64,000 bases of DNA, taken from IMG/VR virus record IMGVR_UViG_3300027850_000169, positions 1 to 64,000 of that record; one strand, written 5' to 3'. The translations under genes and the position numbers were made by a program. The notes beneath the pieces were generated by a model that saw nothing but the letters and a program-made list of their open reading frames with translations, had not been told where the DNA came from and searched no databases. Below, one piece after another: positions 10,893-55,523 of the stretch (its first letter is position 1; each line of letters starts with the position of its first letter). The DNA comes from a virus.

Positions 10893-11606
10893 ATGACTGA
10901 TTTATTGACACTGAAGTATATCTCAATTTCACAGGTTGAACTTTTCGGCAAGAATGCTAAGCTGCACAACCTTGACCAAATTATTCAGTCAATTAAAAAG
11001 TACGGATTTAAATCTGCTTGCAAGTGGGAGGGGGTTCTCAATGACGGGCGCGGCGGGATAGTCGCTGGTAACGGGCGGGTTGAAGCCTTACGGGTAATGA
11101 AGCGACGCGGACACAACTTGCCAGTTGGAATTGCTCAAGATGAAACTGGAGAATGGTGCGTCCCGGTATTATTTGGTGCTGAGTCTGATTCGGAGGCAAC
11201 TGCACGAGCCTATGCACTAGATGATAACAACCTGACTGTAGTTGGCGGTGATTTTGATGTAGCAGATTTGCTGAAATTGTATAATCAAGATTTGTTAACT
11301 TCGGAGCTAGACCAGTTGTTACAGATAGGGGAAGAGCCTGTTACATTTAACGATAGCTTTATCGAAAACGTCATTCAACAACTTTTCACTGAAAGCGATT
11401 CAATCAACAAAGAGAAGAATTTAACCGATAGAGAACACCCTGAGATATCTAATAGTAATACCGCCCGAAACTACCCAGATGTAAACGATGACAATATTGA
11501 AAAAGCAGAACAAAAGCTAAAGTCTCAATTTACTCAAGCAAACAAGAAAAACTTAGAAAATCTGATAACTTGTCCACATTGCGGAGGCGACTTTGAGTAC
11601 AGATAA
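10893..11606 (+). CDS. ParB/Srx-fold nuclease-like protein
   Basis: A 237-residue protein. Residues 8-125 form a ParB N-terminal-like domain: SISQVELFGKNAKLHN, then IQSIKKYGF, the catalytic or nucleotide-binding box GNGRVEAL, and YALDDNNLTV. The C terminus ends in a zinc-like ITCPHCGGDFEY tail. Phage copies usually sit next to DNA methyltransferase or PAPS-reductase-like genes, as here. It starts the plus-strand modification cluster; the next gene begins inside its last codons. It could bind or nick DNA, or act as a CTP-using switch. It is unlikely to be a partition ParB because there is no ParA next to it. Confidence 0.8.
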   Translation: MTDLLTLKYISISQVELFGKNAKLHNLDQIIQSIKKYGFKSACKWEGVLNDGRGGIVAGNGRVEALRVMKRRGHNLPVGIAQDETGEWCVPVLFGAESDSEATARAYALDDNNLTVVGGDFDVADLLKLYNQDLLTSELDQLLQIGEEPVTFNDSFIENVIQQLFTESDSINKEKNLTDREHPEISNSNTARNYPDVNDDNIEKAEQKLKSQFTQANKKNLENLITCPHCGGDFEYR

Positions 11607-12426
11607 TAGATACGACGCTCTGAAAAGATTACATTATTTGTTCAGTGACAAGAGGTGGATATTTGCTAAAACTATGCCGCAAAACCCGCATGAGTACACA
11701 TTGAGAAAGCACTGGAAAAACGAAGATGATTTCGTTGAAGCGGTTCAACTGATTCGAGATTATGGATATGTTATCAAGTTTCAAGGAAGAAAATATACTC
11801 AGTTTAACGTTCTAGGACATTTCTATTGGTCTATGGGTGCGCCGCTTCCCGTGACAATACTAATCAATCGAGCTTGTATTGATAAAGACGCAAAAGCTCC
11901 CTATGATGATATTTCTAATTCTTATGACGATTGGTTTTTAAAGCCAGAATACGAACGAGAGAACGTCAATCTTACAAAACTGCTAAAACCTTATATTGGC
12001 GGTAAACTTTTAGATGTTGGCTGCGGCACTGGGCTATTGCTTGATTTGTTAAACGTTTCTTTTGACTTGTATACAGGCGTTGACCCCAGCAGGATGATGC
12101 TAGACAAATTTAAAAATAAACATCCATGCCACAAAATCATTCAGTCTAAATATGAAGACTTTCCCTATGAAGGATTTGATTCAATTGTTTCGCTATACGG
12201 GTCTTTCAACTATTGTGAGCCGTCATCCGCAATTCAGGTAATTAATCAGTTGTCGCCAGGGGGTAAATATTTTTTAATGCTGTTTAAAGAAGATTATAAT
12301 CCCGTAACTCATAAATTAGCTAATTGTTCAATCCCTTACTATAAGCTAAGTAATTACAGCTTTCCAGTAGGAAGTGTTTTTGCCGAATTTACTAACTATA
12401 TCGTGGTAACGGGAGTCAAAGAATAA
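11593..12426 (+). CDS. SAM-dependent class I methyltransferase
   Basis: A 277-residue protein with an unrecognised N-terminal region of about 130 residues, then the SAM-binding motif LLDVGCGTGLLLDLL (about residues 136-150), a GVDPS motif II and a SIVSLYGSFNY motif. I accept the TTG start at 11593 because a GGAGG lies 6-8 bp upstream inside the ParB-like gene; the genes overlap by 14 bp. The methyl acceptor is unknown. No DNA-methylase DPPY or NPPY motif was seen, so a small-molecule or modified-base substrate is as likely as DNA. Confidence 0.8.
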   Translation: MSTDNRYDALKRLHYLFSDKRWIFAKTMPQNPHEYTLRKHWKNEDDFVEAVQLIRDYGYVIKFQGRKYTQFNVLGHFYWSMGAPLPVTILINRACIDKDAKAPYDDISNSYDDWFLKPEYERENVNLTKLLKPYIGGKLLDVGCGTGLLLDLLNVSFDLYTGVDPSRMMLDKFKNKHPCHKIIQSKYEDFPYEGFDSIVSLYGSFNYCEPSSAIQVINQLSPGGKYFLMLFKEDYNPVTHKLANCSIPYYKLSNYSFPVGSVFAEFTNYIVVTGVKE

Positions 12427-13562
12427 TGCCTACCTATTACGGCAATAAGACCGTTTTTGAGATGGGCTTAGAGCGCATTGAATATTTGTTTGATGAGTTT
12501 GAAAATATTGCAGTTAATTTCTCAGGGGGGAAAGATTCAACAGTTACATTGAACTTAGCTTTAATGGTAGCGGAAAAAAAAGGAAGATTACCACTAAAAG
12601 TATTATTTATTGACCAAGAGGCTGAATGGGATTGCACTATTGATTACATGAAATCGGTAATGTACGACACTAGGATTGAGCCATACTGGTTCCAAATTCC
12701 CTTTAGAATTTTTAACGCTACTTGCAGCGAGGACCCCTGGCTAAATGCTTGGGACATCAACCCTGAAATTACATGGATTAGGGAAAAAGACCCTATTGCT
12801 ATTCACGAAAGCCCTGCAAAAACTGATAGATTTGAAAAGTTGTTTGATGATTTAGGGAACTGGATATTTAAAGGGAAGTCTTATGCCTATCTTTCTGGAG
12901 TCAGGTGTGAAGAATCACCCGCAAGGCGGGCGGGCTTGACGACCTTTGCGACCTATAAATGGATTACTTGGGGAAAAGTAGAGAATAAGAAGCGCAATCA
13001 ATTCGTTTTCTATCCGTTATACGACTGGTCTTATAAAGATATCTGGAAATCCATTCATGATAATAAATGGGAATATTGTGTTTTATATGATTATATGTAT
13101 CAGTACGGTATCTCACCTATAAAAATGAGATTGTCAAACGTCACCCATGAGACAGCCGTTGACAATTTATTCTTTCTTCAGGAAATTGAAGGGGATTTGT
13201 GGACAAGGTTAACACAAAGATTAAGGGGAATTAATACGGCTGGCATTCTAAAAGCTGACTGGAAATGTCCTAAAGAATTACCGTTTATGTTTGAAGATTG
13301 GCATGAGTATCGAGACTATTTATTAGAAAATTTAATAACAAATCAGAGTGTTAAAAAAATAATGCTCAAACAGGTAGAATCGGATAAAAGGCAATACATC
13401 CCAGAGATTCAAGATAAAGTCTGCAAGTATCATATTGATATGATTTTGAAAAATGATTATCATGGAACAAAAGCAACGACATTCGCAGCTTCTCATCTTA
13501 AAGAAAGAACAAATACAAACAGAGACCGTGAAAAAAGAGATAGAGAATTATTTAAAAAATAG
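12426..13562 (+). CDS. PAPS reductase-like ATP pyrophosphatase, IbrA-like
   Basis: A 378-residue protein with the PP-loop SGGKDSTV at residues 33-40, then FIDQEAEW, GVRCEESPARRAG and FYPLYDWSYKDIWK, all hallmarks of the adenosine-phosphosulfate reductase/N-type ATP pyrophosphatase superfamily. Length, context and the ParB-domain partner match the IbrA proteins of E. coli, which are paired with IbrB. It shares one base with the methyltransferase stop. The family activates a substrate as an adenylate; its real substrate here is unknown. It is distinct from the DndC-type member at 53.9-55.5 kb. Confidence 0.8.
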   Translation: MPTYYGNKTVFEMGLERIEYLFDEFENIAVNFSGGKDSTVTLNLALMVAEKKGRLPLKVLFIDQEAEWDCTIDYMKSVMYDTRIEPYWFQIPFRIFNATCSEDPWLNAWDINPEITWIREKDPIAIHESPAKTDRFEKLFDDLGNWIFKGKSYAYLSGVRCEESPARRAGLTTFATYKWITWGKVENKKRNQFVFYPLYDWSYKDIWKSIHDNKWEYCVLYDYMYQYGISPIKMRLSNVTHETAVDNLFFLQEIEGDLWTRLTQRLRGINTAGILKADWKCPKELPFMFEDWHEYRDYLLENLITNQSVKKIMLKQVESDKRQYIPEIQDKVCKYHIDMILKNDYHGTKATTFAASHLKERTNTNRDREKRDRELFKK

Positions 13563-15858: not shown

Positions 15859-15958
15859 TACACCGACGCTACCAACACCTTGCGAACACAACCGCTAAGC
15901 ACTATACATAGCAACACTTTCGATACCGTTTAAAAATACTTTCCCAAAACGCTTGACA
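15859..15958 (+). repeat. 100-bp direct repeat, copy 1 (promoter region)
   Basis: About 100 bp starting CTACACCGACGCTACCAACA and running into the promoter -35 is almost identical to 16777-16877, with only a few substitutions and one extra A. It carries the conserved early-promoter upstream sequence. Confidence 0.85.
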
Positions 15959-15981
15959 AGCTACCGAGTAGCCTATATAGT
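15953..15981 (+). promoter_or_regulatory. Early promoter module, copy 1
   Basis: TTGACA (15953) and TATAGT (15976) are 17 bp apart. The motif AAAATACTTTCCCAAAACGC stands directly before the -35. This is one of seven copies in the window. It drives the 77-residue gene at 16010. Confidence 0.85.
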
Positions 15982-16009
15982 GATAACAGATGAAAAAACT
16001 ACTAAAACT

Positions 16010-16776: not shown

Positions 16777-16877
16777 TACACCGACGCTACCAACACCTTG
16801 CGAACACAACCGCTAAGCGCTATACATAGCAACACTTTCGATACCGTTTAAAAAATACTTTCCCAAAGCGCTTGACA
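16777..16877 (+). repeat. 100-bp direct repeat, copy 2 (promoter region)
   Basis: Second copy of the block at 15859-15958, placing the same upstream sequence and promoter in front of the 139-residue gene at 16940. Confidence 0.85.
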
Positions 16878-16900
16878 AATCCTAGTGAGTAGCCTATAGT
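16872..16900 (+). promoter_or_regulatory. Early promoter module, copy 2
   Basis: TTGACA (16872), 17-bp spacer, TATAGT (16895), followed by GATAACAG. The upstream motif AAAATACTTTCCCAAAGCGC is conserved. Confidence 0.9.
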
Positions 16901-16939
16901 GATAACAGATAGAAAAAACCACTCCAAGCGAGCCTAAAA

Positions 16940-17359
16940 ATGAAAATTGCAAAAGCTAAAAAGTACGCCCAAATTAAAGACAAAGATTTTCCAGCACTTC
17001 TCTTGTTAATAAAACGAGCAAGAAAAGTAATTCCGGGAGCTTGGGGGAAAGTTGAGCGTATTGACGCAGATTGGGGAATAGATGGACTTCTAGATATTCA
17101 TGTGGCGCTTTTGCAGGATGCTCCAACTAAAGGATTGAGAAATCTTACCCCAGGACGTTACCACATATATTTCACTTGGAAGCCTTATGAAGAAGGGCGT
17201 TATGGGTCGAGAGGTTGGAACGTGACCGATTACGAAAAAGGAGAATGGTGGCTACCATTTGAACCATCTGACGCTTATCTCAAGCTTCGTCAACCCCCGT
17301 GGGATGTTCTAAATAGTCGGAAGTGGGACGGTACAACATTGTTTACAAAAACAAGCTAG
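16940..17359 (+). CDS. Hypothetical early protein
   Basis: A 139-residue protein (MKIAKAKKYAQIKDKDFPAL) with a basic helical start and a Trp/Tyr-rich second half containing TPGRYHIYFTWKPYEEG and GEWWLPFEPSDAYL. Composition suggests a compact alpha/beta fold. No family recognised. It is the first gene after early promoter copy 2, so probably strongly expressed early. Confidence 0.7.
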   Translation: MKIAKAKKYAQIKDKDFPALLLLIKRARKVIPGAWGKVERIDADWGIDGLLDIHVALLQDAPTKGLRNLTPGRYHIYFTWKPYEEGRYGSRGWNVTDYEKGEWWLPFEPSDAYLKLRQPPWDVLNSRKWDGTTLFTKTS

Positions 17360-17419: not shown

Positions 17420-17689
17420 GTGTCTGGTAAAGCTTACTACTTTGCCACTGACGAGGCTAGTAAAATCACAGAGTTAGAAATTATGCGTCACTTTAAAATC
17501 ATCGACAATGACTTAGTAGCAAACTCTCGGTTTGGGGTCGAGGTTATGAACGGGCCCCGCCCAATCGTCTTACAACTTTCAAAAGATATAGATTGGGACG
17601 AGATTGAAGTCGATTTAGAACTGGAATTCGCTAAGGGGAACATAACAGGGGCTGAAAAACAGTATTTAGAGTTCATGCACAGACTGTAA
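17420..17689 (+). CDS. Hypothetical small acidic protein
   Basis: An 89-residue acidic protein starting at GTG (MSGKAYYFATDEASKITELE); an ATG at 17481 (MRHFKIIDND) is an alternative because neither has a strong ribosome site. It contains a DIDWDEIEVDLELEFAKG stretch. Unknown function, in the second early operon. Confidence 0.55.
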   Translation: MSGKAYYFATDEASKITELEIMRHFKIIDNDLVANSRFGVEVMNGPRPIVLQLSKDIDWDEIEVDLELEFAKGNITGAEKQYLEFMHRL

Positions 17690-17701
17690 ATATTAATGCC
17701 T

Positions 17702-17741
17702 AGCAGGTTGCTCCGATGAGGGTTCGACTCCCTCTTATGCT
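17702..17741 (+). other. tRNA 3'-end-like sequence (T-arm plus acceptor strand)
   Basis: GAGGG-TTCGACT-CCCTC is a perfect 5-bp, 7-nt T stem-loop and is followed by TTATGCT, the length of an acceptor 3' strand. A GACTGTAAAT stretch upstream looks like a Tyr anticodon loop but belongs to the end of the preceding gene. No D-arm or matching acceptor 5' strand is present, so it is at best a tRNA remnant or an attachment-site-like fragment. Confidence 0.4.
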
Positions 17742-17784
17742 TTTTCCTATCTAATTCTTTCCCCGGTAGGGATTCTATAGACTC

Positions 17785-18135
17785 ATGCCCAAAATCAATT
17801 TTTCTCATCCTAATTCAGAGCTAGATGCTTTAGGGTTTGAAGACCATCAACTCCATGTTAGATTGGAAGACCCGGAGCTTTCAGATAAGCTCATTGCCTA
17901 CTTGTCCCCTCTCGTGGGAAACGGGACTGAGCTTGTGACGATTGTGTCTCCAGGGCTAGCTCATCTAGCGGTGCTAGTGCTAACTACTATCCACGGGCTA
18001 ACGGGGAGCTTCCCGTTAGTTGTTTCAATGGTAAGAGGAGAAGACGGCGGCTTTTCGCCACTACCTGCCGTTAACTTACAAAAATACCGGAATTCTTGCG
18101 CCCGGAAATCTAGAGAAGGGCTCAAAGTTCTCTAG
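17785..18135 (+). CDS. csx15: Csx15-like CRISPR-associated protein
   Basis: A 116-residue protein. It begins with INFSHP, has a central PGLAHLAVLVLTTIHGLTG segment followed by SFPLVVSMVR, and ends NLQKYRNSCARKSR. Cyanobacterial Csx15 proteins, as I recall them, share this order: NFSHP start, a helix ending ...LHGR.GYFP..LR, and a terminal NLQ..R..AR..R. Csx15 is a small accessory protein of type III CRISPR loci, related to proteins that bind or degrade cyclic oligoadenylate messengers. A phage copy with no type III genes around it could act as a messenger sponge or ring nuclease, that is, an anti-CRISPR. The family call is from memory of the pattern; the function is inference. Confidence 0.65.
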   Translation: MPKINFSHPNSELDALGFEDHQLHVRLEDPELSDKLIAYLSPLVGNGTELVTIVSPGLAHLAVLVLTTIHGLTGSFPLVVSMVRGEDGGFSPLPAVNLQKYRNSCARKSREGLKVL

Positions 18136-18223: not shown

Positions 18224-18421
18224 ATGGATTTCTTTAAAATCATAAGCAGTAAGGTTAAACTGCCACTTTCATCACAGGAAACCGAATCTTACGTTGAAGG
18301 GAAAGAGATTGACGGCAAACTATTTGTTCGGGGTCGAAAAATAGACTGCGAATACTTGCAAATTTCCCAAGATGAAGCTGTTGAGGCTCTCGATAAATGG
18401 ATTATCGAAGAGTATGGTTAG
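18224..18421 (+). CDS. Hypothetical small protein
   Basis: A 65-residue acidic protein (MDFFKIISSKVKLPLSSQET) preceded by a good AAGGAG ribosome site. It has a beta hairpin (EIDGKLFVRGRKIDC) followed by a helix (SQDEAVEALDKWIIEEYG). It is the last gene before a terminator at 18445, so it closes the second early operon. Confidence 0.65.
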   Translation: MDFFKIISSKVKLPLSSQETESYVEGKEIDGKLFVRGRKIDCEYLQISQDEAVEALDKWIIEEYG

Positions 18422-18444: not shown

Positions 18445-18478
18445 AAAAATAGCAGTCATAAATTGATTGCTATTTTTT
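18445..18478 (+). terminator. Rho-independent terminator
   Basis: AAAAATAGCA and TGCTATTTTT pair over 10 bp with the T-run in the second arm. The 18422-18728 gap holds this terminator, the next early promoter and a leader. Confidence 0.8.
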
Positions 18479-18574
18479 AATATTATTTTACCCAAGCCAC
18501 GATTACACCCTCAGTCCCAGAGTCCAGACATAGCAACACTTTCGACACCGTTTAAAAATACTTTTCTAAAACGC

Positions 18575-18603
18575 TTGACAAGTCTTAGCGAGTAGCCTAT
18601 AGT
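18575..18603 (+). promoter_or_regulatory. Early promoter module, copy 3
   Basis: TTGACA (18575), 17 bp, TATAGT (18598), preceded by ACATAGCAACACTTTCGACA and AAAATACTTTTCTAAAACGC. A leader of about 120 nt separates it from the 57-residue gene at 18729. Confidence 0.9.
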
Positions 18604-18728
18604 GATAACAGATAGAAAAAACAAGAGAAAAACCAATCTCTTCGCGGATGGGAGGTGACGTTAAAACTTATTAGTTCCTACCGCTCTACAGGTTCTTAGC
18701 AACGTAGCAATCAAAACTAAAAAACCCC

Positions 18729-19347: not shown

Positions 19348-19526
19348 AACCGTCCCTGAGTATCCTACCCGTTTGGGAGCGGCCGCAGACTGAACGCTCT
19401 AGCCCGCCTCAAACGTCGCAAAATCTACCACCAGCGCTGCAACGTTGCCACGCCAGCAACCCCAACCGCTAGACTCTGTACACAGTCATCCTTTCACCGT
19501 ATCTACAAAATACTTTCCCAAAACGC

Positions 19527-19555
19527 TTGACAATCTCCGCACCGTGTATTATATT
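19527..19555 (+). promoter_or_regulatory. Early promoter module, copy 4
   Basis: TTGACA (19527), 17 bp, TATATT (19550), preceded by AAAATACTTTCCCAAAACGC. The spacer differs from the other copies but the upstream motif is intact. Confidence 0.85.
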
Positions 19556-20376: not shown

Positions 20377-20868
20377 TCACACGGCTAGTTTTTCTAATTC
20401 GCTCATTACAAAACTCAATTCCATCAACTCTCCTATCGCCTTCTCTTCAATAGTAGACAGGTCAATCCCGACTAAAAACTTAGCAAAATATTCGACATAT
20501 CCGCTCTGACTATTGATGAATGGGTCTGCTAGTAGACGGGTAGTAACAGGCTCTGTCAAACTGAGAAATACATCACTCAATATAATTTTATATCCGTCAA
20601 AAGGTGGAACAAATATTTTACTGTCTGCGCGTCTGACTACCGACCAAAACTGATTCCTCTCTTCCCAAGAAGCCAATACAGTCACATTCCACAGGTGTTT
20701 TGCTTCATGCGGCGTTCGCCTTATGAATGCGTTGCCACTAAAAGCGTAATCTATCTTAGCCCCGTGCAATAACTTTCTAGAGTAGCTTGGCAAGTTTCTT
20801 AGAGTTACCGCAAGAGTGTCGATTTCAAGTCTTAGGTATGGATAATCTTCTATTGTTGGATATGGCAT
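20377..20868 (-). CDS. Putative distal tail or tail-completion protein
   Basis: A 163-residue protein overlapping the tape-measure stop by one base. It is alpha/beta with a Pro/Tyr start (MPYPTIEDYPYLRLEIDTLA) and an FVPPFDGYKIILSDVFLSL middle. The gene after the tape measure usually encodes the distal tail protein or a tail tip component; I infer this from position only. Confidence 0.6.
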   Translation of the reverse strand: MPYPTIEDYPYLRLEIDTLAVTLRNLPSYSRKLLHGAKIDYAFSGNAFIRRTPHEAKHLWNVTVLASWEERNQFWSVVRRADSKIFVPPFDGYKIILSDVFLSLTEPVTTRLLADPFINSQSGYVEYFAKFLVGIDLSTIEEKAIGELMELSFVMSELEKLAV

Positions 20869-23800
20869 TATTTTCTCCTACCTAGGGCGCTTAAGATTTC
20901 AGCACATTCGGCTGCTGGATTCTGGGAAACGACAGTAAGGTTTCCCACACCGCCTTTACCCATTCCAGTTAACTTGTTCGAGATAGTTTCGAGTAAGTTG
21001 TAAATATTGCCTGCTGTTTCTTCTAGGGACATTGTAATTTGTTTGGCCTCGGTATCAATCTTTGGAGCAATTGGGGGCTGATTAGATGGAGCTACATCAC
21101 CTAATCTTTTTGCTAATATCTCATAAATCCTAGTAACGGTAGCCTCCAATCCTTTAGGTTTGTTTGCCTCTCCTTCAGCCTTGACTTGATTCCCTCTTGC
21201 CTCGTCTAATTGTTGTTGCAAACGTTCAAGTTCAGTTATAGGAGTCTGTCCACCTTCAAATGTTTTCAAAGCTCCATTAACGGGTTTCCCAAACTGCTCC
21301 ATTGCTGCTTTCGCTTCGCGCAAACCTCCCAAGGTGGATTCCTCGGCTGCTCCAATTGCAGCATTGACTTTACCTTCCTCGGTATTGAAATTAATACCTT
21401 TTCTTTTTGCGAAATCACGAGCCGCTAATTCATTTTCGGCTCTAGCTTCGGCATTCCATTTCTTAGTATAATCCTCCATCGCCTTCTGAGCGGCTACAAG
21501 GGATTTGTTCGCTGTTTCAACATCGGGAACCGCTGAAACGGTGTCAACAGGAACGTCAAAAATTGGCAGTGACTTAGCGATTTCTAAAGGTTTGCCAATT
21601 TCAGCACTGATGCCTTTGAGCCAGTCGGGAGTCATTTCAGCAACAGGTGCAGCCTTGGGGGTTTCAAACCCTAAACCTTTTAACCCTTCAGTTTGTACGG
21701 CTCCCAAAGCTTGAATAATCGCAGTTTGAGCGGTGACAGTTAAGGTTTGCTGCTGTTTCTTGTCCTCTACCTCTTTGGCAATTGTAACTTGATTAAGAGC
21801 GGGTTTTGCGTTGCCAAACGCATCAAAAACATTTGACGACTGTACAGAGCTTGTCGAACTAAGACTGCCAGCAGAGTCTTTTTTGGCTTGCGCTGCTTTG
21901 CGAACTTCCTCAAGTTGTTGTTGCTGTGTTAGGCGTTCTCGTCCCCCCTGTTGTTCGATGTTTAGCCGCTGCTGCTCAAGTTGGTTGATTTCACTTTGAG
22001 CTTTTTCAGATTCTCCAACTTGAACGAGTGCTTGTTCTCGAAAACCTTGAACCTGTTTTAACGCTGCAATTTCGCGAGGCGCTGCACCCGTTGCCTTAGC
22101 TTTCTCAACCGCCGCCTGAGACTCAAACAAGGCAATCTGAGCTTGAATTTTTTGGCGCTGTAGTTCTATTGCCTGCTGCTTCTGACTAATAGCTAGTGAC
22201 TGCTGTTGAGCTTGTTGTTGAACCGCAAGTGATGCTACTTGCTGGTCATAAATCTGTTTTTTGATTCCCTCAGCCTTGGTGGCGTCGCCGGACGCATCTG
22301 CAAGAGCAAGCTGGAATTCCAACCGTTGCTTGTCAAGGTCGGATACCGCAGAAGTAAGACCACCCGCTGCTGCCTGTTTGCGCGACTGTTGGTCTAGTCC
22401 AAACTTCTGACTGTCAAGAGTGTTTAGCTCGTTCTCAAGACTTTGTTTTTGTGCGGCTAATTGAATTTCAATTGCTAGGGTGGCTGCTTTGCGCTTGGCT
22501 TCTAACTGCTTCTCAATCAGCCCAAGGTTTGCACCCGCTAATTCTTGCTGGATTTGCCCTTCTCTGTCTGCGGCTTCTTTGGCAGTAATCACGCCCTGAG
22601 CACGTAACTGACGGGTTGCAACTAACTTGTTTTGCAGGATGATAATCTCGCGCCCTGCTGTTTTGAGTTGGACGGCTTCAATCTGTTTAGCGGCATCTTC
22701 TGCTGATAATCCCCCAGCAAGTTCGGCTTTACGGATTGCCAAGGTATCGGTTGTAGTCGTTAGCTTACTGATACGCTCTTGAGCTTTGAGAGCTTCTTCA
22801 ATTTTTTCAACAATCTTTTGCTTGGCTTCTTTCTGTTTTTCAATAGCGCGAGTTTGTTCTAGGTTTTCACGAGTTGCCTTCTGCTCAATTGCCAGTTTCT
22901 TGTCTTCAAGACTATTAATTTCAGATTGTGCAGAACGGACTTTACTGATTTGTCCGAGTGCCTGATTCCGTAGTCCTAGAGCCTGACTGAGGGCTGCAAT
23001 CTCTCCACTAGATGCACCAGTTGCTTTAGCTTTGGCTAACGATGCTTCGGCTTCCAGAATGCCAATTTTTGCGGTAATTTCCTGGCGCTGTAACTCGATG
23101 GATTGCTGCTGACGAGCTAGTCCAACATTTGCTTTTTGTTGTTCTTGTGACTGAGCAAGGGACTTTAACTGCTGTTGATAAATCGCTTCTTTCAGTTGCT
23201 CTTGCTGAACAGTATTACTAGCGAGGTCTGCCAATTGTAACTGAAAACCTAATCGTTGCTGGTCTAGTTTGGATTGAGCCTCTAGTACCCCAGTTATTGC
23301 ACCTTGTTTTTTCGCAACTAATTCTAAGCCTTGACCCTTGACCCCCAAATCGGCTGCTTGCTTCTCAAGAGGTAGCTTCTGCTCAGACAGCCGTGCTTCA
23401 ATTGCGTCGGTTGCCGCCTTTTTCTTGGCTGCGAGTTCTTTTTCGATTAGGTTGAGATTTGCTTGTGTTAAATCTTGCTGAATCTGTGCTTCGCGGTCTG
23501 CGGATTCCTTAACAGAGATTAAGCCCTGTGCTCGCATTTGGCGCGTGGTTGTCAACTTACTTTCTAAAATTCCGCGTTCGCGTTCAGCAGTTTTAACGCC
23601 AATTGCTTCAATTTGCTTGGCGGCTTCTTGTGCTGAAATACTGCCAGAAAGTTCAGCCTTGCGAACGCCAAGGGTTTCATTTGTGGTTGCCAGTTTACTG
23701 GTACGCTCTTGAACTTTGGCGGCTTGTTCAATCTGCTCTAGAGCTTTCTGCCTAGCTTCTTTTTGTTTCTCAATCGCTCGACCTTGCTCTGAGTTTTCCT

Positions 23801-26800
23801 TGGTCGTCCGCTGCTCAATAGACAGCTTTTTATCTTCAAGTGCATTGACTTGAGCTTGGCTTGCTCTGCCTTTGCCAATTTGAGCGGCTGCCTGACCTCG
23901 CAATCCTAGCGCTTGCTTTAATCCAGCAACTTCCTCTGCTGAGGCTCCTGTCGCTACAGCTTTAGCTAAAGCTGCCTGAGCTTCAATGATTGCAATCTTG
24001 GCTGAAATCTCTTGACGTTGTAGCTCGATTTCCTGCTGTTTGCGTGCGAGTCCTACGCTAGCCCGTTGCTGTGCCTGAGAGGCTACAAGATGACTAACCT
24101 GTTTCTGATAAATTGCCTCTTTCAACTCCTCCTGTTTTGCGGTGTTTCCAGCGAGGTCTGCTAATTGTAACTGAAAACCTAATCGTTGCTGGTCTAGTTT
24201 GGATTGAGCATCGTTAACCCCTCCAGCCACCGAAGCTTGTTTAGCAGACAAATCTAAGTCTTGAGATTTAACTCCTAAATCTGCCGCTTGCTGTTCTAAA
24301 GGTAACTTCTGCTCAGATAGTCGCGCTTCAATCGCATCAACAGCAGCTTTTTTCTTAGCCGCTGCACGAGTTTCGTTAGCTTCTTGTTGAGCTTTTAGCA
24401 GTTCCTCTTGAGCTTTTTTCTGAGTTTCTTTGAGCTTCTCCAAATCTTCAGGTTTCTCTTTCTTTGCATCGCCTAAACTTTTAACAGACTTATTGGCAAA
24501 GTTTGCTTTGTCTGTTGCCGCTTGTAACTCGATTGCCGCCCGCCTTTTAGCGGCTTCTTTTTCATTGATTTTACCAGCAGTCAAATCACTTTCAATCGCA
24601 AATTTTTGCTTTAGGACTTTTCCCTCAAGCGCTGTTGATTGTTTCTTAATTGCCTCTGTAACTGAGTCAACTGTAGGTTTTGCTTTTTCCTGCTGTACAG
24701 CTTTTTTTTTGTCAAGTTCAATTGATTCTTGAATTGACTTTTTCTGCCGATTAACTTGGTCAATCTGCATTTTAATTTGACCAATTGCAGCGTTTCGTGC
24801 ATTGTTTTGAGCTTCGGCTTCGTTTCCGCCTATGCCAAATAATCCTGCCTTGGCTTCGGGGACGGCGTTGGCTTCTGCTAATTGTTTATCTAGCAGGGGC
24901 AAAGTATTATCTGCGCGTTTTAAAGCTTTTTTCTCGGCTTCTTTCTCAACCGCAGTCAGCCCTCTCTTTTCTGTTGTGGCTTTGGCACGGGTGCTTTGAA
25001 CATTGCCTAAGTCTTGAGCGCTACCCACTCCAGCCTTGCCCACAATGTCAGTGTTGGCTCGTAGGTCATCAAGCGCAACGTTAAGCTCCTTCATTTCCTG
25101 AGTTTTTTGGACAATAGCAATCAATCCAATGGCTGCACCCAACGCTGCAAGAGGTGCTAATGCCAAGGCGGCGCTAGTTGCTATACCACCAAGACCAACA
25201 GCAGCAAAGTAAGAGGATGTCCCAAATAAGTTAGTTACAATGGTTGCGCGAAGGTAGTTCGCCGTCATTGCTACTAACCGAAGTTGGGTAACTACCATCG
25301 CCGCATTATTTGCAACCATAACAACTGTGACTTGGGTAGTAGCTAAAGCGTAAACCGTTTTAGCAGCAGCGGCAGCTTTTGTAACGACAATTCCGGCAGT
25401 AGTTGCAGCGGCTCCGGCGATTTCTTGTGCAGTTTTGATAATCTGCAATTTCTCAAGAATGGTATAGCCAACAATCAACCCAGATGTGGCCGTAACAAGG
25501 GCGATTGTTCCACCAATTAATGTTTGAACTGGTGCGGGTGCGTTCAAAAAAACACCTAAAAGCGAATTGGCGGCTGTTGCTGCTGCGGCTAGTGAGGGAG
25601 CAAGAGATTTTCCTAATTGTAATTTTAGAGCGTCTATACTTCCACTTAACTCTTCCGTAGCATTCCCCAAACCTTGTTGTAACTGTGCTTGTTGTTCAAT
25701 AGCTGAGCCTGCGCCAGTATCTCCTTTTTGAGCGTTTTTAATTTTTGTATAAGTTTTGTCTATTTTGTCTTGAGTTTGACCTAGTAAACCAAGAAAGGCT
25801 GGCCCGCCTTCATCTCCAAAGATTATTCTTGTCAAACTGGCCTTTTCGTCCGGTTGCATTTTATTAAGGGCGGAACGAAACTCTGGAACTAATTCAACCA
25901 GATTTCGCATTTCTCCGGTTGTAGAATCTCGGATATCTACCCCTAGTTTTTTCATGGCTTCAGACGCTTCTTTTGTAGAAGGTGCTGAAAGTCTGCTAAT
26001 AACTGTTTTTACCGCTGTGGCGGCAGTTGAGGCACTAAATCCGGCATCTCTAACTAAACTAAAAGTTGTTGCTAAGGTTTCTAAGTCTTGATTGTTTGCT
26101 TTTGCAACTGCACCAGCTTGAGACAATATTTGCAGAAAGTCAGGCGCATCAATCGCACCAGCCGCCGCCGTGGCTGAAACTACGTTTGCAATTTCGTTGG
26201 CACTTCTGCCGTAAATAGTGGTAGCAGCACCAACAACTGAAGCAGATACTTTAACACTAGCGCCAGAGGCTTCTGCCATTGCGACTAAGCCGCGTAAGTT
26301 TTTAGCGGTATCTTTAGCGCTGAAACCCAGCTTTGCCAACTCAACAGCAGCCTCTGCCGACTCGTTGCTTGTTTTACTTGTCGCGATTCCAATAGCAATC
26401 GCTTCTCTTTCAAGTGCTGCTACTTCTTCGGCACTCGCACCTGCTGCCGCGCGGAATGAGTTGAGGGAACTTTCAAAGCCCTTGTAAGTATTAATTCCTT
26501 CTTCTGCGAACCCTTTTATAGCCCCAAAGGTAAATTTTGCTGCATCCGCCAACGCCTGGAAACCTACAATTGCTGGAGCTGGGTTGACGGGTGGGATTTC
26601 TATCGGGGGAACTACTATTGGAGGAATGGTAATACCCGCCATAGTATTGTTCAATGCTTGAACCGCAAGGGTAAGCTCTCTTAACGCTGTTACAGCTTGA
26701 CTATTATCCAGTCCAGCACGCAGGCTTATTCCTTGCGAACCAACAGAAGAACGAAGCTGCGAGATATCTTGGACTACTCTAGATGTGTCCAGTGCTACTT

Positions 26801-26870
26801 GAAAAGAAACTGACCCTACTGATGTAACCACAAGATAGTAATTATAAATAACTATCTTTAAAGTCAACAA
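20868..26870 (-). CDS. Tail length tape measure protein
   Basis: About 2000 residues, by far the longest gene. Residues 100-440 match the tape-measure core of TP901-type phages (SFRAAAGASAEEVAALEREA, AASISAAAGA-type helices, GDEGGPAFLGLLG). A hydrophobic, Ala-rich stretch follows near 440-620. Three tandem coiled-coil repeats of about 310 residues (930 bp) cover 21.9-24.4 kb. Tape measure length sets tail length, so this predicts a long tail. The longest frame starts at TTG 26870; a GTG at 26831 (VTSVGSVSFQVALDTS) is more like typical starts and lies just after an AAGATAGT inverted repeat and a TATAAT. Confidence 0.95.
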   Translation of the reverse strand: MLTLKIVIYNYYLVVTSVGSVSFQVALDTSRVVQDISQLRSSVGSQGISLRAGLDNSQAVTALRELTLAVQALNNTMAGITIPPIVVPPIEIPPVNPAPAIVGFQALADAAKFTFGAIKGFAEEGINTYKGFESSLNSFRAAAGASAEEVAALEREAIAIGIATSKTSNESAEAAVELAKLGFSAKDTAKNLRGLVAMAEASGASVKVSASVVGAATTIYGRSANEIANVVSATAAAGAIDAPDFLQILSQAGAVAKANNQDLETLATTFSLVRDAGFSASTAATAVKTVISRLSAPSTKEASEAMKKLGVDIRDSTTGEMRNLVELVPEFRSALNKMQPDEKASLTRIIFGDEGGPAFLGLLGQTQDKIDKTYTKIKNAQKGDTGAGSAIEQQAQLQQGLGNATEELSGSIDALKLQLGKSLAPSLAAAATAANSLLGVFLNAPAPVQTLIGGTIALVTATSGLIVGYTILEKLQIIKTAQEIAGAAATTAGIVVTKAAAAAKTVYALATTQVTVVMVANNAAMVVTQLRLVAMTANYLRATIVTNLFGTSSYFAAVGLGGIATSAALALAPLAALGAAIGLIAIVQKTQEMKELNVALDDLRANTDIVGKAGVGSAQDLGNVQSTRAKATTEKRGLTAVEKEAEKKALKRADNTLPLLDKQLAEANAVPEAKAGLFGIGGNEAEAQNNARNAAIGQIKMQIDQVNRQKKSIQESIELDKKKAVQQEKAKPTVDSVTEAIKKQSTALEGKVLKQKFAIESDLTAGKINEKEAAKRRAAIELQAATDKANFANKSVKSLGDAKKEKPEDLEKLKETQKKAQEELLKAQQEANETRAAAKKKAAVDAIEARLSEQKLPLEQQAADLGVKSQDLDLSAKQASVAGGVNDAQSKLDQQRLGFQLQLADLAGNTAKQEELKEAIYQKQVSHLVASQAQQRASVGLARKQQEIELQRQEISAKIAIIEAQAALAKAVATGASAEEVAGLKQALGLRGQAAAQIGKGRASQAQVNALEDKKLSIEQRTTKENSEQGRAIEKQKEARQKALEQIEQAAKVQERTSKLATTNETLGVRKAELSGSISAQEAAKQIEAIGVKTAERERGILESKLTTTRQMRAQGLISVKESADREAQIQQDLTQANLNLIEKELAAKKKAATDAIEARLSEQKLPLEKQAADLGVKGQGLELVAKKQGAITGVLEAQSKLDQQRLGFQLQLADLASNTVQQEQLKEAIYQQQLKSLAQSQEQQKANVGLARQQQSIELQRQEITAKIGILEAEASLAKAKATGASSGEIAALSQALGLRNQALGQISKVRSAQSEINSLEDKKLAIEQKATRENLEQTRAIEKQKEAKQKIVEKIEEALKAQERISKLTTTTDTLAIRKAELAGGLSAEDAAKQIEAVQLKTAGREIIILQNKLVATRQLRAQGVITAKEAADREGQIQQELAGANLGLIEKQLEAKRKAATLAIEIQLAAQKQSLENELNTLDSQKFGLDQQSRKQAAAGGLTSAVSDLDKQRLEFQLALADASGDATKAEGIKKQIYDQQVASLAVQQQAQQQSLAISQKQQAIELQRQKIQAQIALFESQAAVEKAKATGAAPREIAALKQVQGFREQALVQVGESEKAQSEINQLEQQRLNIEQQGGRERLTQQQQLEEVRKAAQAKKDSAGSLSSTSSVQSSNVFDAFGNAKPALNQVTIAKEVEDKKQQQTLTVTAQTAIIQALGAVQTEGLKGLGFETPKAAPVAEMTPDWLKGISAEIGKPLEIAKSLPIFDVPVDTVSAVPDVETANKSLVAAQKAMEDYTKKWNAEARAENELAARDFAKRKGINFNTEEGKVNAAIGAAEESTLGGLREAKAAMEQFGKPVNGALKTFEGGQTPITELERLQQQLDEARGNQVKAEGEANKPKGLEATVTRIYEILAKRLGDVAPSNQPPIAPKIDTEAKQITMSLEETAGNIYNLLETISNKLTGMGKGGVGNLTVVSQNPAAECAEILSALGRRK
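21900..24380 (-). repeat. Tandem 930-bp coiled-coil repeats inside the tape measure gene
   Basis: Each unit opens with L..QK..LE..., then SKLDQQRLGFQLQLADLA, QQQSIELQRQEI-type and ATRENLEQ...EKQKEA blocks. Equivalent positions are at about 24301, 23371 and 22438, so the period is 930-933 bp (310 codons). The third unit is truncated and more diverged. Confidence 0.85.
26832..26858. promoter_or_regulatory. Inverted repeat at the tape-measure start
   Basis: AAGATAGT and ACTATCTT are perfect 8-bp arms around an 11-nt AT loop. On the minus strand a TATAAT lies inside the loop. It could be an operator or leader hairpin that hides the start. Confidence 0.5.
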
Positions 26871-40230: not shown

Positions 40231-41524
40231 TCCTCACCGACCTGAAGGCACGGTGATTCCTAAGACTCACAACTTAGGTTTCTGCTTCATAGCACCAGCC
40301 TTAACAGATTTACTCTGTTCAGGTCTTACAGTCGCTCCACAGACTGACACGGCAAGCCCTGCCGCCAAAATATTCTTTGCTGCATTGATATCTCGGTCAT
40401 GGTTTGTCCCACACTTAGGACACTCCCACTCTCGAATATTCAAAGGCAGCTTTTCCACAACGTGACCACAATGCCCACACATCTTAGAACTAGGAAACCA
40501 TCGGTCAATCTTGACAAAAGTACGACCATACCAGCCGCACTTGTATTGGAGTTGCCTGACCAGTTCCCCCCAGCTAGCATCACTGATAGCAAGGGCAAGT
40601 TTGTGGTTCTTGACCATATTCTTCACAACCAAATCCTCAACGGCGATGGTTTGGTTTTCACGCACCAGTCGAGTTGTCAGTTTGTGAAGAAAATCCTTTC
40701 TAGAGTCGCTAATTTCTTGGTGAACTCTAGCAACTTTAAGTCTAGCTTTGTGTCGATTGTTGCTACCTTTGACCTTGCGGGACAAACGCTTCTGGGCTTT
40801 CTTGAGCTTGCGACGTTTAGTTTTGAAGCATTTAGGGTTTGCAACTTTCTCGCCATTGCTCAGGGTAATCAAGCTAGTGATACCCAAATCCAAACCAATC
40901 TGATTAGTAGATTCTTGCCATGTTTCAATTTCAGTGTCAACCAACAAAGAAACAGTCCATCTTCCAGAGGGTGCAAGTTTTACTGTAATAGTAGATGGCT
41001 CAGTATCAGGTGGAATCTCCCGACTCCATCTGATATCCAACGGCTCAATACACTTTGCTAAGTAAACTTGTCCATCTTTCCACTTGAAAGCGGACTTGGT
41101 AAATTCTGCATTGCCACCATTATGCTTTTTCTTGAAGTTAGGGTATTTTGCCCGACCCGCAAAGAAGTTAGTAAAGGCGGATTGCAGATGCCTCAAGCCC
41201 TGCTGTACTGGCACACAGCTAACTTCGTTGAGAAATTGCAAGTCTTCTTGCTTTTTCCACTCGGTCAACATCGCAGAAGTTTCAGTGTATCCGACTCGCT
41301 CTTGCCTTTCATACCAAGCCTCCGTTCTAAGAGCAAGGGCTTTGTTGTAGACTAAACGAGCGCAACCCATCGTTCTTCTCAGCAAGTTTTCTTGCTCAGG
41401 AGTTGGATAGAATCGGTACTTGAATGCTTTCTGTGTCATACTTCACAGTATAGCATCTATTTCGTGAAAGTGTAAACTTTAATATAAAGCCGTCCTAGAA
41501 GGACGGGGTTTCAGACCTATTTTT
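40230..41524 (-). mobile_element. IS200/IS605-type element carrying only tnpB
   Basis: The element reads on the minus strand. Its left end follows a TTAC target-adjacent motif (plus strand GTAA at 41525-41528) and has a CCGTCC-TTCTA-GGACGG hairpin; its right end just after tnpB has a CACCG/CGGTG hairpin (40235-40255) and GAGGATGTC, as in RE/omega-RNA regions. No tnpA is present, so it would need a helper. It interrupts the DHH gene. Confidence 0.75.
40267..41439 (-). CDS. tnpB: TnpB RNA-guided endonuclease
   Basis: A 390-residue protein with all RuvC acids: D184 in IGLDLG, E269 in IAVEDL and D350 in NHDRDINAA. The zinc finger CGHC...CPKC sits at residues 321-343 and the N terminus is the usual TnpB start (KAFKYRFYPTPEQE). 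TnpB proteins cut DNA next to a short target-adjacent motif guided by an RNA made from the element's right end, which helps the element persist. Intact, so likely active if the RNA is made. Confidence 0.95.
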   Translation of the reverse strand: MTQKAFKYRFYPTPEQENLLRRTMGCARLVYNKALALRTEAWYERQERVGYTETSAMLTEWKKQEDLQFLNEVSCVPVQQGLRHLQSAFTNFFAGRAKYPNFKKKHNGGNAEFTKSAFKWKDGQVYLAKCIEPLDIRWSREIPPDTEPSTITVKLAPSGRWTVSLLVDTEIETWQESTNQIGLDLGITSLITLSNGEKVANPKCFKTKRRKLKKAQKRLSRKVKGSNNRHKARLKVARVHQEISDSRKDFLHKLTTRLVRENQTIAVEDLVVKNMVKNHKLALAISDASWGELVRQLQYKCGWYGRTFVKIDRWFPSSKMCGHCGHVVEKLPLNIREWECPKCGTNHDRDINAAKNILAAGLAVSVCGATVRPEQSKSVKAGAMKQKPKL

Positions 41525-48579: not shown

Positions 48580-50415
48580 TCACCGGGATAATAAATCTAT
48601 CCTTTTTGTTTTTGCCTGTAACGCCCACTTAGACAAACCAATTGAAACTTCCTTCTGTAGAAGTTCAAGGCTTAATTCGCCCCATTTTTTCGCTTTCTTT
48701 GTTGCTACCAATCCTGCGAACAGTGCTAGTTCATCGTTGACCGCCGCATTGATATCACGGTGACACTTCCAGCCGCAGGTACATTCATACAATTTAATTT
48801 TAGGGTCACTCATTGATGCCATCTTGTTTAGGCAGACTGGGCAAGTTTGCGAAGTGTAGGCAGCCGGATTTCTCAAAAAAGTACGTCCGTCACGTGCAGA
48901 TTTCTGTTCTAGTTGTGCAATGAAATCGCCGTGTCCCGCGTCAGATAACGACTTTGCCAACCCAGTTTTTTGAGCTTTCCGGTTTTTCTTGTAGCCACCT
49001 TTCTCTGTATCTTCTTGTGGCTTAGCTTGTGCTCGAAGATTTTGTGATTGCAGCCCGTTTTCACAGGAAATAAATTGATAGTTGGTTACAATCTCAGAGC
49101 TAAGCTTTTGGTTGAATCCCTTGCGTTGACGTTTAATCTTCTCGTGTAGTTTACTAATCCGATTCTGAATCTTTTTCTGTTCACTGGAAAGTGCTTGACA
49201 GTTCCACTTTAACTTTTGCCAGTACATCCCTCCGATTAGGGCAATACCTTCAGCTTCACTTTTGATTTCACAAAGCTTTTTGGCTTTGTCAGGCGAGCAA
49301 TTAATAAGAGCTTTGATGTCTTTGTGTCGCCGTTCAGGATGATTTAACCAGAGAATCAGTCGGTGAGTCATTTTGTTAGCTAGTTCTTTCTGAAGCTCCG
49401 CTAATTTAATTTGAGCGTTCCGGTAGTAACGCGGATTTCCGTACTGCTTGCCGTTGCTTAAACTGATAAAGCTGTCTAGTCCAGGGTCGATTCCTATCGA
49501 CTTAGTTGTTTGTTTAATGCGTCGCCCCCGAACCAATTCGCCCGTTAGTTGGACATAGAAGCCTGAAGCGTATTGACATATTTTGAAGGCGGCAATTTCT
49601 GGAATTGTGCCGTCTGGATTTTTCCACCGACGTGCTAGTCCTTTTAGCCGCAATTCACGAAGACCTGGTATACCTATTAGAGATTGAGAGTTTGCCTTGG
49701 GAACGATGACACCTTTTGGGTTGTTGTGAACCAGGGTTGCAACCTTGTCACGTCTGCGTTTAAACCGAGGCCGCCCCTTTTTTGCACCATTCTGAACCCC
49801 GGCTCTTGACTTTGTGTACTCTTGCCAGCTAGTATCCAATCCAGCAAGAACTCCAGAGCGAAACTTGTACGGCATTTCTGTCATGAATTCGCGGTGTGCT
49901 GTTAGGTTGTTTCCTTTGATGACTTGACCTAACCCGCCCGCCTGTTGCAAACCCGGCTTAGAAATCAACGTTTCGCTGAAATCAACCGACAAAGGGCAAC
50001 TGTAACCAGTAACCGACCCATGTTCTGAGTTCTGCCAGCCCCAAGATTCTTTCTTCTCTGCTGGCTGCGGAACTTTTACCCGCTTCAACTCTCGGATATA
50101 CCAATGAGACTTATCATCGTAAATGACACTGTAGGGCGCTTGGATTATTGACTTACCTTTGTCTTTTGAAACGATTGCACCTTCCTCATCTACAAAGTGA
50201 CTCCAATACTTCCAAGGTAATCGACAGCATGGAGCGTACCCGCCACTCTCTTTACCATCTAAACCGTTCGTAGCTTTGTAGTAGTAATAATTTGTTTCAA
50301 AATCTTCTAAGGCTGACAATCCACAATTCCACACAGACTTAGAAATTTGCAACCACTTTTCTATTTTTTCTTTCTGTTCAAGAGATGGAAAACATTTAAA
50401 TTCTAGTGTGAGCAT
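48580..50415 (-). CDS. Compact Cas12-type effector (type V-U, TnpB-like)
   Basis: A 611-residue protein (start at ATG 50415, MLTLEFKCFPSLEQKEKIEK, the usual TnpB-like start; a 15-residue longer form is possible). RuvC-I SIGIDPGLDSFI has D310, RuvC-II ISCENGLQSQ has E452 and RuvC-III KCHRDINAA has D554; a CPVC...CTCGWKC zinc ribbon lies between. All three catalytic acids are kept, so it is not the inactivated Cas12k of CAST elements, and no Tn7-like genes are here. It is adjacent and convergent to the CRISPR array. Size, host group and lone effector fit subtype V-U2 (C2c8-like); the subtype is inferred. Confidence 0.85.
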   Translation of the reverse strand: MLTLEFKCFPSLEQKEKIEKWLQISKSVWNCGLSALEDFETNYYYYKATNGLDGKESGGYAPCCRLPWKYWSHFVDEEGAIVSKDKGKSIIQAPYSVIYDDKSHWYIRELKRVKVPQPAEKKESWGWQNSEHGSVTGYSCPLSVDFSETLISKPGLQQAGGLGQVIKGNNLTAHREFMTEMPYKFRSGVLAGLDTSWQEYTKSRAGVQNGAKKGRPRFKRRRDKVATLVHNNPKGVIVPKANSQSLIGIPGLRELRLKGLARRWKNPDGTIPEIAAFKICQYASGFYVQLTGELVRGRRIKQTTKSIGIDPGLDSFISLSNGKQYGNPRYYRNAQIKLAELQKELANKMTHRLILWLNHPERRHKDIKALINCSPDKAKKLCEIKSEAEGIALIGGMYWQKLKWNCQALSSEQKKIQNRISKLHEKIKRQRKGFNQKLSSEIVTNYQFISCENGLQSQNLRAQAKPQEDTEKGGYKKNRKAQKTGLAKSLSDAGHGDFIAQLEQKSARDGRTFLRNPAAYTSQTCPVCLNKMASMSDPKIKLYECTCGWKCHRDINAAVNDELALFAGLVATKKAKKWGELSLELLQKEVSIGLSKWALQAKTKRIDLLSR

Positions 50416-50474
50416 AATTGAAAATCTTTTGCAAAGGGCTTTACAAACCCAGTATATCATGTTATCTTAGTAAT

Positions 50475-53906: not shown

Positions 53907-55523
53907 ATGACATTAACACCTCGAACAGTTCCAGAATTAATTGCAGAAATTGATATCCTTACCTCTGAAATTCAAGAATTGTATTTGCAGGGAAATCCAT
54001 TCGTTGTTGGATGGAGTGGAGGCAAAGATAGCACAACCGTGCTTCAACTTATATGGAATGCTATTAAGCGACTACCAAAAGAACAGCGCAAATACCCTCT
54101 TTATGTGATTACTAATGACACTTTAGTTGAAAATCCAATTATTTCCGCCCATGTTAGGAATGCTTTGAAGTTGATAGATGCGGCAGCAAAAGAGCAAAAT
54201 ATACCTGTTATGACTAAAATGACAACCCCTGAAATAAAGAATTCTTTTTGGGTTTGTTTAATTGGGAAAGGTTATGCCGCACCACGACAAGGGTTTCGTT
54301 GGTGTACTGACAAGCTTAAAATTAGACCCGCTGAAAAATTTATCAACGAAGTGGTTACAATCGAAGGTCAAATGATACTTGCTCTTGGTGTTCGAGAGGC
54401 TGAAAGTGCGACGCGAGCTGCGAGTATGGAAAAACAACGTGAATTTAAAGTAAGTGAAAGATTAAATAAGAATCAACTACACGTTGGTTCACTTACTTAC
54501 AGTCCAATTCGGAGTTGGCGCACGGATGAAGTCTGGCTTTATTTAATGCAGTACGAAAATCCTTGGGGATGCGACAACAAGGATTTGTTTGCAATATATC
54601 GAGGCGCAACAGCGGATAACGAATGCCCTCTAGTTGTTGATGCTTCCACTCCTAGTTGCGGAAGTTCTCGTTTTGGTTGCTGGACGTGTACTCTTGTATC
54701 TAAAGACAAGTCTACAGAAGCAATGATTCAAAACGATGAAGACAAAGAATGGATGCAGGTTCTACTTGATATTCGCAATGAGTTAGATGTTCGTGATGAC
54801 GAAGGAAAACACGCTGACCATGACAAAAGAGACTGGAAAGGCAACTCAGGAAAAGTAAGGTTTTACACTAAATTTTACAATGCGAGGGAAGAAGATAATT
54901 CTACTATGCTTAAGCCTGTTCCAGGGCCCTACATCAAATTTTGGCGAGAACACTGGCTGAGGCGAGTCTTGGAAGCACAAACTCAAATACGCAAAACCGC
55001 ACCAGAAGAAATGCGCGACATCACCTTAATCACCCCAGAAGAACTTAGCGAAATCCGCCGCATTTGGAGAGAAGAGAAACACGAATTTGACGATAGTTTG
55101 CCCCGGATTTACGAACAGGCTACAGGAGAGTCGTTTGCAGACATTTCTTGTACAGATGAACGAAACGCTTTGGGTAAAGAAGAATGGGATATCTTGTCTG
55201 AAATATGCGAAGAAGATGAAACGCATTTTCACTTGATAGCAAGCCTCCTCAACGAAACAAATAAAACACATTTAAAGACGCGCCGCAAAGATGTATTCAA
55301 AGCATTGGAAAAATGCTTTGACGCTAATTCCCGCTCTATGGAGGAAGCGGTTGCAAGCAGTCATGAAAAAAACAAGTTGACCAAGACTGTTGAATCCGTA
55401 AAAAAAGAAGGTCTTGGCGAACTCAATAAAGTTAAACAAATGTTAAACAAAGATACTCCCAATAGCAAACAGCTTTCTTGGGCTGACGTTAAATTCGCAC
55501 CGTCTGTCGAACAATTACAATAA
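53907..55523 (+). CDS. dndC: DndC-type DNA phosphorothioation sulfurtransferase
   Basis: A 538-residue protein. The PP-loop PFVVGWSGGKDSTTVLQL has SGGKDS at 37-42. GFRWCTDKLKIRP, AESATRAASMEKQR and the Cys cluster TPSCGSSRFGCWTCTLVSKD (about 250-261, with NECPL before it) match DndC, which activates the DNA backbone phosphate with ATP and hands over sulfur via an iron-sulfur cluster. The other Dnd proteins (DndA/IscS, DndD, DndE, DndB) are absent from the window. The C-terminal 130 residues are charged and helical. Ends at a strong terminator. Confidence 0.9.
   Translation: MTLTPRTVPELIAEIDILTSEIQELYLQGNPFVVGWSGGKDSTTVLQLIWNAIKRLPKEQRKYPLYVITNDTLVENPIISAHVRNALKLIDAAAKEQNIPVMTKMTTPEIKNSFWVCLIGKGYAAPRQGFRWCTDKLKIRPAEKFINEVVTIEGQMILALGVREAESATRAASMEKQREFKVSERLNKNQLHVGSLTYSPIRSWRTDEVWLYLMQYENPWGCDNKDLFAIYRGATADNECPLVVDASTPSCGSSRFGCWTCTLVSKDKSTEAMIQNDEDKEWMQVLLDIRNELDVRDDEGKHADHDKRDWKGNSGKVRFYTKFYNAREEDNSTMLKPVPGPYIKFWREHWLRRVLEAQTQIRKTAPEEMRDITLITPEELSEIRRIWREEKHEFDDSLPRIYEQATGESFADISCTDERNALGKEEWDILSEICEEDETHFHLIASLLNETNKTHLKTRRKDVFKALEKCFDANSRSMEEAVASSHEKNKLTKTVESVKKEGLGELNKVKQMLNKDTPNSKQLSWADVKFAPSVEQLQ

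Follow-up and report, generated by a model that had tools for sequence, protein, structure and literature searches.

A short open reading frame reminiscent of the CRISPR-associated protein Csx15 in the genome of a virus raises two questions: does it belong to that family, and what use would a phage make of it? The window analysed here is a stretch of 64,000 nucleotides, positions 1 to 64,000 of the IMG/VR record IMGVR_UViG_3300027850_000169 (G000), which is 91,696 bases long. An initial annotation had read the frame as a phage-encoded Csx15-like protein and a possible type III anti-CRISPR. The alarm molecule concerned is cyclic tetra-adenylate (cA4), a signal of type III CRISPR immunity. Csx15 belongs to the CARF superfamily and forms dimers, which pile up head-to-tail and hold cA4 between one dimer and the next (Chi et al. 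2026, PMC13148439). The gene usually lies in a type III CRISPR locus, about 25% of the copies being orphans (PMC12409355). A search of 28,114 phage genomes reported Crn2, Csx20 and Csx16, Csx15 not being among them (Hoikkala et al. 2025, PMC12409355), and Chi et al. (2026, PMC13148439) took this absence to suggest a cellular dampener, perhaps of no value as an anti-CRISPR.

Assignment of the open reading frame to the Csx15 family

The gene is defined as follows.

17785..18135, + strand: phage csx15, intact ORF with an ATG start, 116-aa divergent Csx15 of the CARF superfamily (NCBIfam, PADLOC, PDB 9tet, G001)

The motifs on which the initial annotation had relied are present in this ORF, NFSHP at residues 5-9, HGLTGSFP at residues 70-77 and NLQKYRNSCARKSR at residues 97-110. 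The profile search it had proposed as a check placed the protein above the curated NCBIfam cut-off, with 39.5 bits (E 5.5e-10) against the equivalog profile NF040560 (CAS_Csx15), for which the cut-off is 35; a six-frame search with the same profile gave 35.5 bits for the window gene, and the csx15 copies of two related contigs, G001 and G002, also exceed the cut-off. The hmmscan alignment spans only positions 62-125 of the profile, which is about 125 aa long (the curated cut-off does not demand a match along all of it), and the N-terminal part of the phage protein is about 9 residues shorter and aligns poorly. The family identity claimed at the outset is further borne out by PADLOC (Csx15, 1.6e-6) and by a phmmer search of PDB sequences, which retrieved 9tet, "CRISPR-associated Csx15" (PfCsx15), with an E-value of 3.6e-6 and 39% identity over 51 aa. 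In pairwise BLASTP the protein matched PfCsx15 at 3e-10 versus 0.001 for CliCsx15, the homolog from Chlorobaculum limnaeum. A custom Csx15 HMM from which the phage rows had been left out gave it 30.4 bits, and the top score among 2000 residue-shuffled copies was 8.0; profile-profile comparison with canonical Csx15 (hhalign) gave a probability of 95 across residues 1-106, and tblastn against L016 revealed full-length similarity over residues 1-110 (6e-7). Neither PHROGs nor Pfam yielded a family for the protein. Judged from these profile and pairwise matches, the window gene is almost certainly a divergent, phage-borne Csx15.

The affinity to cyanobacterial Csx15 suggested in the initial annotation did not find confirmation for the protein, the closest characterised relative being PfCsx15 of Pseudomonas fluorescens; Csx15 identity and phage location are both supported.

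The csx15 gene resides in a tailed phage

The record encodes a P22-type major head protein, about 42% identical to its counterparts in Vibrio phages of about 75 kb. Its large terminase subunit matches phrog_979 (2.9e-139) and its portal protein phrog_145 (2.3e-82), and minor head proteins are encoded as well. The source of the window is a metagenomic tailed phage. The 2000-aa ORF at 20868-26870 looks like a tape measure gene, judged by its length and repeats; it contains an internal direct duplication of about 730 bases (22675-23402 and 23605-24332, 71% identical). G002 corresponds to the same phage as G000 along its full 36.6 kb, and G001 is a distinct relative that aligns to G000 in blocks, at about 81-97% DNA identity. 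In G001, csx15 occupies the same neighbourhood and its protein is 95% identical to that of the window. We weighed the possibility of a contaminating host contig and rejected it, the contig being phage in both G000 and G001 with synteny kept.

The two csx15 genes of G000 and G001 differ by a dN of 0.033 and a dS of 0.171, amino-acid differences being concentrated in the first 14 codons; the resulting dN/dS of about 0.2, a rough figure from a single pair, therefore indicates purifying selection on csx15 in this one comparison. The statement in the initial annotation that type III CRISPR genes are missing nearby holds for the signature gene, since no Cas10 palm domain was detected in the whole 91.7 kb record.

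As for the host, an IS605-type TnpB gene at 40267-41439 encodes a protein 68-77% identical to TnpB of Calothrix, Trichormus, Microcystis, Nostoc and other cyanobacterial plasmids, and part of this gene shares 78% DNA identity with an Aulosira plasmid. These similarities suggest that the phage has been in contact with cyanobacteria, which are a candidate host only. A spacer search of plasmids with positions 1-50000 of the window returned only transposon-like matches and no spacer-like match. A second IS605/TnpB-type gene (48580-50460) is long (626 aa) and divergent. The window also carries a sulfotransferase, a methyltransferase (weakly Mad2-like) and two PAPS-reductase proteins, one of them weakly DndC-like (1228-2004, 11593-13562 and 53907-55523), a set that could represent sulfur chemistry or DNA/nucleotide modification genes of the phage.

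Residues of the cA4 site have counterparts in the phage protein

Two members of the family have been characterised (Chi et al. 2026, PMC13148439). PfCsx15 is a sponge, for which H11 and R123 were mutated; its interface has S9, H82, R116 and R120 as further conserved residues. CliCsx15 cleaves cA4 slowly, needs both H13 and H90 to do so, and neutralises cA4/Csx1 immunity in vivo in E. coli, the one case in the family for which such an effect has been reported. PfCsx15 retains both histidines, yet is essentially non-enzymatic. The residue numbers of that study fit the chains of 9tet (PfCsx15) and 9teu (CliCsx15), each with an offset of 7, and allowed the following correspondence.

17803..17808, + strand: codons S7 and H8, at the positions of PfCsx15 S9/H11 and CliCsx15 H13 (motif I, cA4 contact/catalysis; alignments A4 and A5)
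17992..17994, + strand: codon H70, equivalent to PfCsx15 H82 and CliCsx15 H90 in HG..G.FP, invariant in A4
18052..18054, + strand: codon F90, matched through its spacing to PfCsx15 F106 and CliCsx15 Y113, proposed to flank an adenine
18088..18114, + strand: C-terminal helix segment with R102, R107 and R110, equivalent to PfCsx15 R116/R120/R123, invariant A4 columns

By our own reading of the sequences, F90 sits 12 residues ahead of R102, like the F/Y of canonical Csx15, MAFFT having placed the gap elsewhere. The arginines are spaced R102-x4-R107-x2-R110 versus R-x3-R-x2-R, that is with one extra residue that puts R102 one out of register. Residues N5, H8, P9, P56, H70, G71, G74, F76, R102, A106, R107 and R110 are invariant against the 12 canonical Csx15 rows of A4. 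Thus, by alignment or, for F90, by spacing, each residue shown or proposed to be important for cA4 binding has a counterpart in the phage protein (S7, H8, H70, F90, R102, R107 and R110), and we consider it quite probable that phage Csx15 binds cA4.

A fold prediction had also been proposed as a check. The AlphaFold2 model computed on A4 is of moderate confidence (pLDDT 69, pTM 0.57), and a second run with a re-registered alignment brought no gain (pLDDT 67). The order of elements fits a CARF domain and is as expected minus one unresolved strand: b1, a1, a2, b, a helix with H70 near its end, a b-b hairpin and a helix bearing the arginines. The beta4-beta5 hairpin, which makes dimer-dimer contacts in Csx15, looks shortened. 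Foldseek searches of the PDB and BFVD with this model gave nothing significant (no PDB match with E <= 0.001), the Crn1-type CARF ring nucleases Sis0811 and SSO1393 being among the top non-significant PDB matches; 9tet and 9teu were absent among the matches listed, perhaps because the PDB copy ends on 8 April 2026. With pLDDT values of 67-69 and no significant Foldseek match, the model is consistent with a CARF-like fold without proving it independently.

The predicted csx15 transcription unit

In the window, csx15 takes third place in a predicted four-gene unit that runs from a promoter at 16872 to a hairpin at 18477.

16872..16900, + strand: near-consensus sigma-70 promoter TTGACA-17-TATAGT (11/12), one of four near-identical copies
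16940..17359, + strand: first ORF of the unit, 139 aa, no family match
17420..17689, + strand: second ORF (89 aa), without significant family match
18224..18421, + strand: fourth ORF (65 aa), with an AAGGAG Shine-Dalgarno and without significant family match
18445..18477, + strand: intrinsic-terminator-like hairpin (14 bp) ending the unit, from sequence

The three neighbours of csx15 in the unit were searched against NCBIfam, PADLOC, PHROGs and Pfam. The promoter copies (TTGACA-17-TATAGT or TATATT, 11/12 consensus positions) are located at 15953, 16872, 18575 and 19527; direct repeats occupy 15929-16000, 16848-16919, 18551-18622 and 19507-19536, and the first three promoter copies lie inside longer repeats. 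These repeated blocks precede clusters of small ORFs on the + strand, between about 15.9 and 20 kb. In phages, early takeover and counter-defence regions are commonly built as strings of small unknown genes behind strong host-type promoters. By analogy, the csx15 unit is a probable early operon, and the small ORFs between 15953 and 20000 are a candidate counter-defence region.

A piece resembling the 3' half of a tRNA (GAGGGTTCGACTCCCTCTTATGCT) lies directly upstream of csx15, at 17695-17742 of the window, and is present in G001 too, where a full tRNA-Met(CAT) adjoins csx15 (L005, 695-769); a tRNA search of the window found none.

Csx15 in other viruses and in cells

No Csx15 was found among 50,697 GenBank phage records, and no real Csx15 came up when the window protein, a PfCsx15 fragment and canonical Csx15 served as queries against GenBank phages and PLSDB plasmids; the matches to a Streptomyces phage "Cas4 exonuclease" were rejected as noise (32% identity, E 0.04). 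Alignment-guided pattern scans of IMG/VR identified nine further contigs with Csx15, and a repeat scan of IMG/VR with another alignment gave zero additional ones. Two of the search alignments contained seed sequences from outside the collections; one of them, A2, which served for the genome scan, included a Csx15-like sequence on which no conclusion depends. Eight of the nine further proteins score 132-169 bits against NF040560. The ninth (L068, 8001-8372) is a degenerate viral relative that has lost HG..G.FP (LYSRCGLLP) and is truncated at the C-terminus, and is possibly decaying or re-purposed. Phage hallmarks were present in five of the nine.

G407: terminase
G409 (135 kb): terminase; baseplate wedge gene near csx15
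G412 and G413: terminase and portal
G414: tape measure near csx15

Csx15 is thus carried by the window and by no fewer than five further phage contigs, which makes at least six phage lineages. This count leaves out G408 (L057), in which a search for hallmark genes found none, and the short fragments G410, G411 and G415; in G410 and G411, csx15 is flanked by helicase and primase genes.

Cas10 was absent from all 11 viral records tested, among them G000 and the eight intact further contigs. Among 400 Chloroflexota genomes, 67 encode Csx15, and in 20 of these, all that were tested, a Cas10-palm match was obtained, in 14 cases within 15 kb of a csx15 copy. Hence csx15 accompanies type III systems in cells, as sampled in Chloroflexota, and stands alone in viruses. 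Its frequency in Chloroflexota far exceeds the published tally for complete genomes, which stands at 18 loci (PMC12409355).

In a Csx15 tree, most viral rows fall on separate branches among Chloroflexota clades, with modest supports, and the window lineage forms a very long branch beside PfCsx15. The scattering of viral copies among bacterial Csx15 clades suggests several captures of csx15 by viruses; the supports are modest because the protein is short.

Proposed role of phage Csx15 in counter-defence

An anti-CRISPR role, drawn from the biochemistry of PfCsx15 and CliCsx15 (PMC13148439) and from the genomic context, is in our opinion the best explanation and a fairly probable one. Since the family soaks up or slowly cuts cA4 and phages carry Csx15, the phage protein probably mutes the type III alarm. 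We thus propose, with about the same confidence, that a virus-captured, divergent, cA4-specific Csx15 sequesters, and perhaps slowly cleaves, cA4, and thereby blunts type III CRISPR signalling. The gene, closest to stand-alone PfCsx15, would have been captured by the virus and would be expressed early from its host-type sigma-70 promoter, beside other small takeover or counter-defence proteins. Csx15 dimers would then stack head-to-tail around sandwiched cA4, S7 and H8 of one dimer meeting H70, R107 and R110 (and R102) of the next, so that cA4 made by the host type III (Cas10) complex would be removed before Csx1/Can-type effectors are switched on. Viral capture has precedents in AcrIII-1 and AcrIII-2 (PMC12751052), the native anti-CRISPR activity of AcrIII-1 being disputed in work cited there. 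Against the sponge reading stands the argument that sponging could be fruitless in view of the large amounts of cOA that type III systems make (Chi et al. 2026, PMC13148439).

Sequestration is more likely than cleavage, because the nearest characterised relative, PfCsx15, is a sponge. The phage protein has retained both catalytic-type histidines and might therefore cut cA4 slowly in the manner of CliCsx15; PfCsx15 keeping them too, sequence cannot decide between the two. A true catalytic anti-CRISPR ring nuclease of the CliCsx15 type, turning cA4 over instead of binding it stoichiometrically, seems unlikely to us. H8 and H70 do match H13 and H90 of CliCsx15, both required for cleavage, and a type III system makes so much cOA that an enzyme would suit a phage better. 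However, the same two histidines in PfCsx15 come with essentially no enzymatic activity (PMC13148439), CliCsx15 itself is very slow, and the phage protein matches PfCsx15 far better than CliCsx15 in pairwise BLASTP.

That the fold was kept to bind another nucleotide, either a CBASS-type cyclic tri- or dinucleotide or a phage or host nucleotide, which would make the protein an anti-defence sponge unrelated to type III, appears improbable: the very long branch and the altered loop and hairpin lengths would fit such a change, and viruses are known to have sponges against CBASS and other kinds of nucleotide signalling (PMC11722364), but the conserved residues are precisely those contacting cA4 (A4). 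We give still less credence, indeed very little, to csx15 being a passenger or decaying bacterial gene with no present function in the phage. By our own reading, an IS607-type recombinase-like frame adjoins csx15 in G001 (L005), TnpB copies occur elsewhere in the phage genome and one viral csx15 (L068) looks degenerate; against this, the ORF is intact in three contigs with its changes mostly in the first 14 codons and a low dN/dS, a strong promoter and a terminator surround the unit, and csx15 recurs in unrelated phages.

Comparison with known systems

PfCsx15 resembles the phage protein in residues S9, H11, H82, F106, R116, R120 and R123, all matched, and in being likewise a stand-alone gene away from CRISPR loci. 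It differs in being bacterial and about 30% identical over the whole length, the phage protein being shorter at the N-terminus, with NFSHP for NFSGH and one residue more between R102 and R107. CliCsx15 and canonical Csx15 (NF040560) share motif I (NFs.H), HG..G.FP and NLQ..R...AR..R, but are CRISPR-associated, match the phage protein less well and, for CliCsx15, cut cA4 slowly; where canonical members have the FEVAE motif, the phage protein has lost it and reads FSPLPAV.

Among viral proteins, AcrIII-1 (viral Crn2) is likewise virus-encoded, aimed at cA4 and endowed with a cellular counterpart in type III loci, whereas it is described as a fast ring nuclease of unrelated fold. AcrIII-2/Crn5, the viral SAVED protein of Thermocrinis Great Boiling Spring virus, is also a virally captured CARF/SAVED-superfamily domain that sandwiches cA4 in head-to-tail stacks, and is the DALI top match of Csx15 (PMC13148439); it differs as a catalytic 230-aa SAVED domain related to CalpL. 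Sponges of the Acb2/Acb4 type are small phage proteins that sequester a defence nucleotide stoichiometrically, but are described as having other ligands and targets (CBASS).

The occurrence of Csx15 in phages is new with respect to the 2025-26 literature, which reports none, and a Cas10-free phage Csx15 with conserved cA4-site residues reverses the premise of the cellular dampener view. We see about an even chance that unrelated tailed phages have acquired csx15 on several occasions and that it acts there as a filament-forming cA4 sponge, which would make it a third structural class of AcrIII after AcrIII-1 and AcrIII-2. If true, multiple capture and sponge action would overturn the published inference of no anti-CRISPR use for Csx15, and "orphan" bacterial Csx15 such as PfCsx15 may derive from mobile elements. 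Whether such a stoichiometric cA4 sponge could overcome type III immunity in the course of an infection can now be tested with the published family assays.

A Csx15-like domain was also seen at the end of CbCash, a solved protein of 297 aa (PDB 9ylu, residues 168-290), in which the HG histidine is replaced (MQGRM); CbCash may thus combine a sensor of the Csx15 type with a further domain.
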